From positions 1-32,302 of the forward strand of contig JAAZVW010000015.1 of NCBI GenBank assembly GCA_018623135.1: 32,302 bases of DNA. The letters are read 5' to 3'. Below, one piece after another: positions 1,956-32,302 of the stretch. Each line of letters begins with the position of its first letter. Position 1 is the first letter of the stretch. The notes beneath the pieces are model-generated. The model was not told the DNA's origin. It saw only the letters and a list, made by a program, of their open reading frames with translations, and searched no databases. Position numbers and translations under genes: made by a program. Source of the stretch: Pseudomonadota bacterium (GTDB lineage: Bacteria > Pseudomonadota > Alphaproteobacteria > UBA1280 > JAAZVW01).

Positions 1956-3190
1956 TAGTTTAATTCTTTTTCTATTTGGTTTTTAGCGATATCCAGAGCG
2001 CCACCTAAATGATCCATTGCACCTTTTAGGCTTTGTTCTTTAGCTTTTAATAAAGCATTGTTTGTGATGTACTCTGTTAGTTTTAGCACAAGTTCGCCTT
2101 TTGTTTCAACGCTAATCACGGCATCGGCCTTTTTTAGGTCTCTCATTGTTTCAGAAAAATTCTGCATATGTGGGCCTGTAAAAGTAAGGCGACCTGATTT
2201 AACAGATTCGATAGGCGTTTGCCCGCCATGATTTATAAAGCTGCCACCAATAATAACAACATGGGCTAATTGCAGCCATAGCCCCATTTCGCCTACTGTG
2301 TTGGCGATGTATACCTGATGCTCTTTACTGAGTTTTGCATGGTATGATCGCAACTGAAGAGCTGGATTTAAATTAAGTTCTTCGGCTATGTGTTCGCCAC
2401 GTTGTGGATGACGCGGTACGACAATGATAAGACAATCTTTTAGCTCTTTTTTCGCATGAATTGCTGTAACAAGGTCGAGCTCTTCTGGATTGTGGGTGCT
2501 TGAAAGTAAAATAATTTTACGATCTTTTAGCTCTGCCTGTAGCTGTTTGAGTTCTTGCGAATTATAGCTTGGCAGAGGTGTATCATATTTTAAATTACCC
2601 ATGGTTGAGGCGCGTTCGGCGCCTAATTGTTGAAGGCGTTCTGTATCTTGCACTTCTCTGCCGAGGCAAATTTTAAATTTATGCAATAAAGGGGCAATAA
2701 GGTTTTTATGCTTTGTATATTTTTTAAAGCTACCATCTGAAATGCGGGCATTAATAAGCATAGGGTTAGGTGCTTGTGTTAAAAGCTCTGGCCAAAATTC
2801 AGATTCCATAAACACAGAAAGGTCTGGCTGCCAGTGCTGCATAAATAGAGCAACAGAAAAGAAAGTGTCTAGCGGTACAAACTGATGAATAACCCCTTCT
2901 GGAAGGCGTTTTTTCATTAAATCTGCAGAAGTGCGGGTGCCGCTTGTAAGGAGAATATGTAGTTGGGGGTTGTCTGCCTTTAAGGCTTTAATAAGTGGCA
3001 AAAGGTTAATTGTTTCGCCAACTGAAGCGCCGTGTAGCCATAGTAATGTGCCTTCTGGCCTTGCTTTTGAGGCAATGCCTAGGCGTTCTTTAAAGCGTTT
3101 AGGGTCTTCTTTGCCTTTAATAAGGCGTAGGATAAAAATAATAAGAAAAAGAGGGCTTAGAGCACGGTAAAGCCAGATCATATTAGGCAT
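1955..3190 (-). CDS. waaA: 3-deoxy-D-manno-octulosonic acid (Kdo) transferase
   Basis: LLWLHGASVGE, FMESEFWPELL and IIGGSFINHGGQTPIE motifs typical of WaaA/KdtA. Confidence 0.95.
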   Translation of the reverse strand: MPNMIWLYRALSPLFLIIFILRLIKGKEDPKRFKERLGIASKARPEGTLLWLHGASVGETINLLPLIKALKADNPQLHILLTSGTRTSADLMKKRLPEGVIHQFVPLDTFFSVALFMQHWQPDLSVFMESEFWPELLTQAPNPMLINARISDGSFKKYTKHKNLIAPLLHKFKICLGREVQDTERLQQLGAERASTMGNLKYDTPLPSYNSQELKQLQAELKDRKIILLSSTHNPEELDLVTAIHAKKELKDCLIIVVPRHPQRGEHIAEELNLNPALQLRSYHAKLSKEHQVYIANTVGEMGLWLQLAHVVIIGGSFINHGGQTPIESVKSGRLTFTGPHMQNFSETMRDLKKADAVISVETKGELVLKLTEYITNNALLKAKEQSLKGAMDHLGGALDIAKNQIEKELN

Positions 3191-3899
3191 CCTTTTCTGT
3201 TGGTGTTGTTGGTGTGCGGCACATACGTTCGTCGGCCTCTATTTGTAATAAATTCATTTGAGATTCAACCTTAACGCGGAAGGCTTCTAACTCTTGTTCT
3301 GAAACTTTACGCGGGATATGAATAGGCTCCCCCCAAATAATGACACCTGAATCTTTTATTTTAGGGACTAGAAAATGATCCCAACTTTTAAGCGCTTGTG
3401 TGCCTTTTTGTGTGGAAATAGCAACTGGAATAATAGGTAAGCCAGACATGCGGGCAATTTCTACCACACCCATTTGGGCATGTTGCCTTGGTCCTTTTGG
3501 GCCATCGGGCGTAATAAAAAGGCTGTGGCCTAAGCGGGCAAAACGGAGCATTTTTTTAACAGCTGCAGTTGCACCCCTTGTGCTTGAGCCGCTTACGGTA
3601 TGAATGCCAAAAAAGCGACCTGCTTTGCTGACAAGTCGACCGTCGGGGTGGTCGGATATAAGTGCTTTAAGCTGAGGGGAGCGACGGCGATAGAGTTTAG
3701 GCATAAGTAAAAGTCGGCCATGCCATAGGGCTAAAATAACAGGCTTATCTTGTTGCCAATAATGTTCTACTGCTTTGCGGTTAATTTCATCATAGCGACC
3801 GAATTTCCAGCAAAGTTCCACATAAATAGCAATAAGCCCACCAAAGAACCATTGGAAGAAGGCGCTACGCAAAAGCTTTTTTTTGTAACGTTTAAGCAT
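3183..3899 (-). CDS. DUF374 lysophospholipid acyltransferase-family protein
   Basis: ALWHGRLLLMP, LISDHPDGRLVSKAGRFFG and FITPDGPKGPR match the DUF374 family, usually found near waaA/lpxK/msbA. Start at internal Met29 of ORF 3183..3983. Confidence 0.88.
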   Translation of the reverse strand: MLKRYKKKLLRSAFFQWFFGGLIAIYVELCWKFGRYDEINRKAVEHYWQQDKPVILALWHGRLLLMPKLYRRRSPQLKALISDHPDGRLVSKAGRFFGIHTVSGSSTRGATAAVKKMLRFARLGHSLFITPDGPKGPRQHAQMGVVEIARMSGLPIIPVAISTQKGTQALKSWDHFLVPKIKDSGVIIWGEPIHIPRKVSEQELEAFRVKVESQMNLLQIEADERMCRTPTTPTEKDA

Positions 3900-30061: not shown

Positions 30062-30104
30062 AAAGAAGCCTCCATATTTATTGTGGAGGCTTCTTTTATT
30101 TTTT
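30062..30104 (+). terminator. Rho-independent terminator after pnp
   Basis: AAAGAAGCCTCCA-TATTTATTG-TGGAGGCTTCTTT followed by TATTTTTTT. Confidence 0.92.
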
Positions 30105-30181
30105 TAGAAGGGTTTTTGTTGGGAGATGCGTTTAAAGGGTATAAGCTTAAAAGGCTTGAGTATAAAATAAGGAGTTAAGCG

Positions 30182-30493
30182 ATGAAATATTTAACAATTT
30201 TTGCATTAATGCTTTCTGTACTAGCGGTTTCGGCACAGGCAGAAGAGGGGCGTGAACATGGTAAGCGCGGGAAACATTTTCAGGAAACAGATGTAAATGG
30301 TGATGGCAAAATTTCTCGTGAAGAATTTTTAACAGCACGTCAAAAGAAAATGGAAGAGCACTTCGGTCGTATGGATGCTAACAATGATGGTCAGCTGACA
30401 AAAGAAGAGCTGAAAGAAGGTCGTAAAAAAATGCGTAAGCATATGAAAGAGCGCCGTGAAAAACGTAAAGAACGTCGTGAAAGCGAAGAATAG
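30182..30493 (+). CDS. Secreted EF-hand protein with very basic C-terminus
   Basis: Signal peptide (FALMLSVLAVSAQAEE); two canonical EF loops DVNGDGKISREE and DANNDGQLTKEE; tail KKMRKHMKERREKRKERRESEE. Confidence 0.88.
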   Translation: MKYLTIFALMLSVLAVSAQAEEGREHGKRGKHFQETDVNGDGKISREEFLTARQKKMEEHFGRMDANNDGQLTKEELKEGRKKMRKHMKERREKRKERRESEE

Positions 30494-30498
30494 GACCT

Positions 30499-31032
30499 AT
30501 GCTGGATTTAACTTTACTGATGAAACAAGCCGGCCAAGGGGATAAAAAAGCCTTTGGTCAGCTTGCCCAGCACTTAAGTGGCTATTTATATAATCTATGT
30601 TATAAATGGTTACAAAGTGAAACAGAAGCCGAAGACGCCTTACAAGAAGTGCTGATTAAATTATGGAAAACAGCCCCAAAATGGGAGGCGAAGGCAGAGG
30701 TAAAAACTTACGTTTATCGTATTGCTTATAACCATTGTTTAGATAAATTAAGAAGTGCAAAAAAAGTAGTGGAGCTTGTAGATGAACATGGCATTGAGCC
30801 TACACAGGTAGATAAAATTTACCAGGACCAGCGCCAAGCTCATTTAAAAGAACGTTTGGATGCCTTACCGGAAAGCCAAAAAACAGCTGTGATGTTGTTT
30901 TATTATGAGCAGATGAAGCAAAAAGAGATTGCTGAGGTGATGGCTATAAATGTAAAAGCAGTGGAGTCTTTACTTTCTAGAGCAAAGAAAAAGCTGCAAG
31001 AACAAGTAAACCCCATATATAAGGAGGCTTAA
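30499..31032 (+). CDS. ECF-type sigma-70 family RNA polymerase sigma factor
   Basis: Region 2 (ETEAEDALQEVLIKLWKTAPKW...VKTYVYRIAYNHCLDKLR) and region 4 (LPESQKTAVMLFYYEQMKQKEIAEVMAINVKAVESLLSRAKKKLQ). Confidence 0.93.
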   Translation: MLDLTLLMKQAGQGDKKAFGQLAQHLSGYLYNLCYKWLQSETEAEDALQEVLIKLWKTAPKWEAKAEVKTYVYRIAYNHCLDKLRSAKKVVELVDEHGIEPTQVDKIYQDQRQAHLKERLDALPESQKTAVMLFYYEQMKQKEIAEVMAINVKAVESLLSRAKKKLQEQVNPIYKEA

Positions 31033-31037
31033 GGCAG

Positions 31038-31334
31038 ATGAAAAAGCAAGATTTTGATGGCTTAATGCCAGAAAAAACAGAATTTAAATTTGATGAGAAA
31101 AAACTGGATGACATGATTGCAAAAGCTGTTATGCATACGCAAGATATGCCAGAAAAGCAAGATTGGCGAACAAAGGTTTCTTATGGATTAATGGCGGCAA
31201 GTTGCGCAACTTTGTTATATGTATGCTCTTTTGCGCCAATAAATAGTAATACCGATGTGCAACAGTTTGCGGATGAGGGTTTAACTGAAATTTATGATTA
31301 CGCAACATTAGAGTTATTAGAAGACCTTGTTTGA
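31038..31334 (+). CDS. Putative single-pass membrane anti-sigma factor
   Basis: 98 aa; acidic/helical cytosolic N-terminus, one TM (VSYGLMAASCATLLYVCSFA), directly downstream of the ECF sigma gene. Confidence 0.6.
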   Translation: MKKQDFDGLMPEKTEFKFDEKKLDDMIAKAVMHTQDMPEKQDWRTKVSYGLMAASCATLLYVCSFAPINSNTDVQQFADEGLTEIYDYATLELLEDLV

Positions 31335-31346
31335 TACTCAATAGAG

Positions 31347-31374
31347 CTTGAAAGTAGAGCTCTACTTACTATAA
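31347..31374 (+). promoter_or_regulatory. Candidate sigma70 promoter with palindrome in the spacer
   Basis: TTGAAA (31347-31352), 16-bp spacer, TATAAT (31369-31374); AAGTAGAGCTCTACTT perfect palindrome at 31351-31366. Confidence 0.5.
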
Positions 31375-31399
31375 TTTGTTGTTGATACAACCTAACCTG

Positions 31400-31425
31400 C
31401 CGAGGTTCCTCGGTGTTTTCTTTTT
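31400..31425 (+). terminator. Hairpin plus T-rich tract (terminator/attenuator)
   Basis: CCGAGG-TT-CCTCGG then TGTTTTCTTTTT. Confidence 0.6.
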
Positions 31426-31448: not shown

Positions 31449-32302
31449 ATGCGCACTTTATTTCTGCTGGTTATTGCTTTTCTTTTGATTGCCTGTGGTG
31501 GTGCAGGAGGAAGTAAAAATAGTCCTGCAAACATCTCAGCGGATCGCTTGAGTGCAACTGATATGGATGCTGCCCGTCTGGCTGCAGAGCGTGAATATAA
31601 CGCTGTGCAAACTGCGGTGCAGAAGAACCCTGAAAACCCTAAAAAGGTTGTTAAGATGCTGCAAGAATTGCATCGAGACCTTTATTTAGGGGATGATGGA
31701 CAAAAATGGCAACGTCATGTGCAGGGGGCTTCGGCTTATAATGCCCAAATCCTTGAGAAAATTTCTCAAGGTGAAGACATTGCCGTTGCTGTGATCACAG
31801 GTTCAGATAGTAGCTTTTATGAAGCCGCTGCCTTTGAACTTTATTTGCAGTATTATTTGCAGGAAAATTTTTCTGCTTATGCGTTTGATGTTTTTGGGCT
31901 TCAGCTGGATAACTCAGATCAGGTTTTTAGTGGTGGTATTTCTGCTGCAACTAAAAATGTGCTGTTGTCGGTTACTGGCGCTCAAACTTGGTCAGACAAG
32001 TCTCGGGCAGATGCTTTGAATGTTGTGCCAGCGTTATATGATGTTGACGTTGATTCTAAGTATCTTGGTTCTGTAACCAATGCCTTAGCGATGCAAATGG
32101 ATATGGGACGGCCTGTTTTGTTGGTGCCTCTGGGTAATGCAAATAAAGCAACACACAAGGTATACAGCAAACTTTGGGATTTGGGCTATACAGATGGTCA
32201 GATGCGTTTACTGAGTATTGGTGGTGCGTCTACGATTTTGAATAGCTTTAATATTCTGTCGGATAAGGATGCAAATTTTGCTGTGTATAAGAATATGCCA
32301 GA
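31449..32302 (+). CDS. Lipoprotein of unknown function, 3' truncated by window edge
   Basis: Open frame not in supplied track: MRTLFLLVIAFLLIACGGAGGSKNSPANISADRL... to window end without stop; lipobox LIAC; Shine-Dalgarno-like ggagg at 31439-31443. Confidence 0.85.
   Translation, partial: MRTLFLLVIAFLLIACGGAGGSKNSPANISADRLSATDMDAARLAAEREYNAVQTAVQKNPENPKKVVKMLQELHRDLYLGDDGQKWQRHVQGASAYNAQILEKISQGEDIAVAVITGSDSSFYEAAAFELYLQYYLQENFSAYAFDVFGLQLDNSDQVFSGGISAATKNVLLSVTGAQTWSDKSRADALNVVPALYDVDVDSKYLGSVTNALAMQMDMGRPVLLVPLGNANKATHKVYSKLWDLGYTDGQMRLLSIGGASTILNSFNILSDKDANFAVYKNMP

Follow-up and report, generated by a model that had tools for sequence, protein, structure and literature searches.

Few direct links from extracellular Ca2+ to bacterial transcription have been worked out. 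The CnrYXH system of Cupriavidus metallidurans consists of a small membrane anti-sigma factor without a zinc motif, an ECF sigma factor, and a periplasmic partner. In Caulobacter vibrioides, the CaBP-SigV circuit joins a periplasmic EF-hand protein (CaBP, CCNA_02838/CC_2752) to the sigma factor SigV (CCNA_02837) (PMC13171946). Genetic evidence shows that SigV strongly activates cabp, and overproduction of CaBP increases sigV expression. Deletion of cabp barely alters its own promoter under EGTA or acid, the inducers in that study (PMC13171946). The cabp promoter was mapped by 5'RACE (-35 GGAAA, 13 nt, -10 CGTTCA), sigV has its own transcription from a promoter that lies within cabp, and the membrane link between CaBP and SigV was left unidentified in this 2026 work (PMC13171946). 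The Azospirillum rpoE8 operon is of the ECF sigma/anti-sigma/Metal_resist (CnrX-like, PF13801) type, and RpoE8 activates its own promoter (PMC12826043). EfhP of Pseudomonas aeruginosa is an EF-hand protein and a proposed Ca2+ sensor affecting transcription (PMC11559002).

The window analyzed here, a 32,302-nt stretch of alphaproteobacterial DNA, carries an operon that is a slimmed-down relative of the CaBP-SigV circuit. Its features are:

30062-30096, + strand: terminator-like hairpin (intrinsic) after pnp, a 15-pair stem followed by TATTTTTTTA, which would end upstream transcription
30106-30134, + strand: predicted ECF-type promoter, AGAAGGGTT-N12-TGCGTTTA, with the EF-hand ATG 47 nt further on; the best PWM site of the window
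30182-30493, + strand: secreted EF-hand protein of 103 aa, Pfam EF-hand_5 (E 1e-13), with a signal peptide, two canonical loops and a basic C-terminal helix
30499-31032, + strand: ECF sigma factor of 177 aa, with Sigma70_r2 and Sigma70_r4_2 (E ~1e-16)
31038-31334, + strand: probable membrane anti-sigma factor of 98 aa with one TM segment, judged by position, the single TM and a short alignment with the proteins of L003, L007, L012 and L112
31398-31415, + strand: terminator-like hairpin 3' of the operon, a 7-pair stem followed by TTTTCTTTTT

The initial annotation had described three open reading frames spaced 5 nt apart and suggested that they make up a single regulatory unit. All three were recovered, in the order EF-hand protein, sigma factor, one-TM protein, with gaps of 5 nt each. 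In the terminator scan, the + strand shows a terminator on either side of the three genes and none within the group, so that by spacing and hairpins they look like a single transcription unit. A further promoter within the operon, of the kind reported for sigV, could also drive the sigma and anti-sigma genes. No Rfam match was found within the operon. Beyond its 3' end, the region 31348-31415 contains a near-consensus sigma-70-type promoter (TTGAAA-16-TATAAT), with a terminator-like hairpin about 20 nt further on and a lipoprotein-like gene at 31449. One possible reading of this region is a leader carrying an attenuator; another is a plain terminator overlapped by a promoter.

The EF-hand protein was expected to have two Ca2+-binding loops and a basic tail, and it has both. 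The loops, DVNGDGKISREE and DANNDGQLTKEE, score above the Pfam gathering threshold for EF-hand_5 and fit the canonical 12-residue loop, in which positions 1, 3, 5 and 12 carry acidic or polar ligands. The N-terminus, MKYLTIFALMLSVLAVSAQA, resembles a signal peptide as judged by eye. The tail, KEGRKKMRKHMKERREKRKERR, has a charge of +7, and the tails of its four sub-clade relatives (below) range from +1 to +8. In a structure predicted at pLDDT 73, Foldseek ranks EF-hand proteins first, though the matches are weak and none reaches E < 0.001. The PF13801 model (Metal_resist/CnrX) gives the protein E 0.11 and 13.1 bits, below the cut-off of 29.2.

The domain matches of the sigma factor bear out its assignment to the ECF class. 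Its group profile, A1, was run against 386 whole genomes of the class Alphaproteobacteria, and neighborhoods were read at 107 group loci scoring 160 bits or more and, as controls, at 47 other ECF loci scoring 112 bits or less. The window sigma scores 221 bits, against no more than 112 for control ECFs, and the sigmas of Caulobacter relatives score about 200 bits. A search for the exact NA1000 locus did not find it, and its place is taken here by L204 and L195, two close relatives that several of the published primers match at 0-2 mismatches and in the right order (PMC13171946). The window sigma and those of L204 and L195 belong to the same ECF group by profile score and lie on one tree. PRK05602 is the best NCBIfam model of both the window sigma (144, below the cut-off of 208) and the L204 sigma (282). 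The group takes in loci closest to named Phenylobacterium as well as those matching the Caulobacter primers. Same-group sigmas of about 203 bits also occur on Paraburkholderia and Burkholderia contigs (L178, L184), so the group extends past the Alphaproteobacteria; L178 has a CnrX-like gene, and neither locus showed an EF-hand ORF. At L011 (2163-2984), a same-group sigma lies beside a flagellin-like gene without an EF-hand or CnrX-like gene, an arrangement that recalls Azospirillum RpoE6.

A survey of EF-hand and ECF neighbors, which had been suggested as a check, showed the pairing to be conserved. At 59 of the 107 group sigma loci, and at none of the 47 control loci, a same-strand EF-hand ORF is found no more than 300 nt upstream of the sigma. 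The Fisher test (p = 4e-13) ignores kinship, and counts per GTDB family, 31/60 against 0/28, are the fairer figure. The EF-hand/sigma pairing is more than chance. The remaining 48 of the 107 group loci, about 45%, have no upstream EF-hand gene, which indicates that this gene is not needed for the sigma/anti-sigma pair to work. Along the sigma tree, its presence changes 4-5 times at a minimum, or about 17-18 times by parsimony, so the gene has often been gained or lost. Members of family f41 (L023, L052, L059, L065) have a further EF-hand ORF ahead of the first, about 0.9-1.0 kb upstream of the sigma.

When box pairs ahead of the 59 EF-hand genes were counted without guidance, CGAC-N18-CGTT and pairs that overlap it turned up in 23-29 loci, compared with at most 8 for any pair in shuffles. 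In 57 of these 59 loci, which are its training set, the fitted two-box motif, CGACGGAAT-N11/12-tgCGTTTA, exceeds the 99% null level upstream of the EF-hand gene. Outside the training set, it precedes the sigma in 36 of the 48 group loci that have no EF-hand gene, and in 1 of the 47 controls. The L204 copy, CGACGGAAT-N11-CACGTTTC, lies 46 nt from the gene start, and by their letters the boxes of the mapped cabp promoter fit the group motif. Over both strands of the 32-kb window, the site at 30106-30134 scores 10.36, against 6.46 for the runner-up. It still ranks first (8.17 against 6.03, with p = 0.001 for the upstream region) under a held-out model whose training set lacked the clade of the window together with another four loci of the short type; within the sub-clade, L003 and L112 pass this model, and L007 (p = 0.03) and L012 (p = 0.06) are weak. 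A search of 22 relatives with an over-tight pattern returned almost nothing, and a strict scan found no sigma-70-type promoter ahead of the EF-hand gene. A motif that travels with its sigma group is the usual sign of autoregulation. The window sigma probably recognizes the promoter at 30106-30134 of its own operon, and we are highly confident in reading the locus as a sigma/anti-sigma operon that regulates itself and gives rise to a secreted EF-hand protein.

The motif also provides a handle for finding the regulon. In the window's own genome, G000, a second strong copy (CGAAGGGTT-N11-TTCGTTTA, G000:C28:579-604, locus L223) lies 66 nt before the gene of a Gly-zipper (PF05433) lipoprotein. It scores 12.58, and the best site in 3 Mb of random sequence scores 11.66. 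The lipoprotein gene is a possible second member of the regulon; close homologues of it are missing in the relatives. A third site in G000, near an RND adaptor, had a chance-level score and was set aside.

The product of the third gene had been described as a small single-TM protein 3' of the sigma that lacks a zinc anti-sigma motif. It does have one hydrophobic segment (residues ~47-65), and the HxxxCxxC motif (ASDI type) is absent from it and from all 86 group candidates. A low-confidence model places helices at residues 20-32, 43-65 and 74-97, giving a single TM and a short cytoplasmic helix. Class II anti-sigma factors of the CnrY type have a single TM and two cytoplasmic helices that wrap around sigma2 and sigma4; the window protein has no sequence match to CnrY. 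The protein might be some other small membrane protein rather than an anti-sigma factor, as it has no family match in Pfam or NCBIfam and no PDB relative, and its model is of low confidence. We consider this very unlikely: a single-TM ORF directly follows the sigma at 86 of 107 group loci against 22 of 47 controls, and the short anti-sigma forms have an N-terminal helix and an acidic C-terminal motif in common. The 98-aa protein is a probable membrane anti-sigma factor on these grounds. Its acidic periplasmic tail reads DYATLELLEDLV, and across the group the last 20 residues of the anti-sigma tail have a median charge of -4. That the basic EF-hand tail and this acidic tail match in charge is no more than suggestive.

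A CnrX-like gene adjoins the sigma, nearly always downstream, at 97 of the 107 group loci and 1 of the 47 control loci. Three examples were checked against Pfam and belong to PF13801 (Metal_resist). At 44 group loci, the sigma and the CnrX-like gene occur without an upstream EF-hand gene, and in most relatives the CnrX-like protein, more than the EF-hand protein, suggests itself as the sensor. The anti-sigma gene has no CnrX-like gene after it in the window, L007, L012 and L112. A profile search of genomes G000, G005, G051 and G281 (85, 91, 75 and 95% complete), four of the five genomes of the window's sub-clade, found nothing over the cut-off for a CnrX-like gene, although one could be missed in G000 at only 85% completeness; the EF-hand gene is present in all four. 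In G002, of the same order, a CnrX-like gene adjoins the sigma. The sigmas of the window, L003, L007, L012 and L112 form one group on the tree (support 98/94 in the first tree and 95 in a rebuilt tree that left out the row L172phenylo, where the five-member clade stayed), and the window sigma clusters with EF-hand-positive loci from genomes in which no CnrX-like gene was detected. All five sub-clade loci have EF-hand genes, with two loops in four of them and one in L003, and their anti-sigmas are 89-107 aa long. As no CnrX-like gene was detected in the window's genome, the pair appears to have no periplasmic partner encoded alongside it other than the EF-hand protein, and the sub-clade amounts to a natural experiment on the role of this protein. 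The EF-hand-positive loci L092 and L054 were considered as CnrX-like losses and dropped, because L092 has such a gene and L054 stops at a contig edge. At L024 (2539-3180, sigma-strand coordinates), a multi-loop EF-hand ORF lies directly after the anti-sigma gene, in the usual CnrX-like position.

For the window, we infer that the anti-sigma factor binds the sigma, that the sigma recognizes the motif, that the EF-hand protein binds Ca2+, and that this protein contacts the anti-sigma factor. The short cytoplasmic helix of the 98-aa protein would hold the sigma at the membrane until a periplasmic signal acting on the acidic tail released it. The freed sigma would transcribe its own operon from 30106-30134, and the first product, the secreted EF-hand protein, would act as a Ca2+-dependent periplasmic modulator of the anti-sigma factor, tuning the response to Ca2+ or to envelope state. 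We put a self-activated operon with such a modulator at even chances. Feedback of the EF-hand protein on sigma release is itself a claim that could go either way, helped by what CaBP overproduction does in Caulobacter and by the loss of the CnrX-like gene. It is weakened in that deleting cabp has little effect on its own promoter and in that 48 group loci have no EF-hand gene upstream.

The EF-hand protein could instead be an output of the regulon and nothing else, a secreted Ca2+ buffer or envelope protectant, with the anti-sigma factor, or the CnrX-like protein where there is one, sensing the signal. Deletion of cabp leaves the Caulobacter promoter response almost unaltered (PMC13171946), and the protein may therefore be mainly output; its gene also stands directly behind the sigma's own predicted promoter, and the 44 group loci just mentioned keep the sigma and the CnrX-like gene without it. 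This is a serious possibility, to which we give somewhat less than even weight. An output-only role is harder to square with an EF-hand gene that recurs directly upstream of the sigma in 31 families and stays where the CnrX-like gene is absent, and with the rise in sigV expression on CaBP overproduction (PMC13171946). At the other extreme, the EF-hand protein of the sub-clade may have replaced the CnrX-like sensor, creating a minimal three-gene Ca2+-gated switch in which the basic helix grips the acidic anti-sigma tail according to Ca2+ loading; we regard this as doubtful. The frequent switches on the sigma tree (at least 4-5, or 17-18 by parsimony) might even suggest that the EF-hand gene is a hitch-hiker, placed in the operon by chance and without a functional tie to the sigma pair. 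This is unlikely given the neighborhood survey (59/107 against 0/47), and with the group's motif preceding the EF-hand gene and the genetic link of the Caulobacter pair (PMC13171946) also against it, we give it scarcely any credence.

The conserved gene order bears on the Caulobacter circuit as well. Both L204 and L195 have cabp and sigV followed in turn by genes for a 150-aa one-TM anti-sigma-like protein and a second one-TM protein and by an MsrP gene (MsrP being identified in L204); the second one-TM protein of L204 matches PF13801 Metal_resist at 1.6e-15. We infer from this order that the two genes next after sigV, one anti-sigma-like and one CnrX-like, are candidates for the missing membrane component of CaBP-SigV. 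YedY is CC2748 (PMC3511200), and with cabp at CC_2752 this leaves two gene numbers after sigV for these genes. The MsrP gene of L204 (methionine sulfoxide reductase catalytic subunit, 3172-3504) lies directly after the CnrX-like gene. Dichromate induction of CC2748 depends on sigF only in part (PMC3511200). SigV is a candidate to account for the sigF-independent share.

CnrYXH is similar to the window system in outline of working, but its gene order is different and CnrX is absent in the window. The sigma profile gives SigW (122 bits) a higher score than CnrH (91 bits), and the anti-sigma profile does not find CnrY. EfhP and the window protein are both EF-hand proteins, likened here by description (PMC11559002). 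The rpoE8 operon, also likened by description, has a sigma followed by a small hypothetical protein, and self-activation is what we propose for the window; unlike that type, the window has an EF-hand gene, with no PF13801 member in the operon or detected in the genome. Compared with CaBP-SigV, the window protein has two EF-hand loops where CaBP has three, the 98-aa protein stands alone where L204 and L195 have the 150-aa anti-sigma-like and CnrX-like genes, and the apparent single unit contrasts with the separate transcription reported for sigV. Like CaBP-SigV, the window has a gene for a secreted EF-hand protein immediately ahead of that for a related ECF sigma, behind a predicted promoter with the same two boxes.
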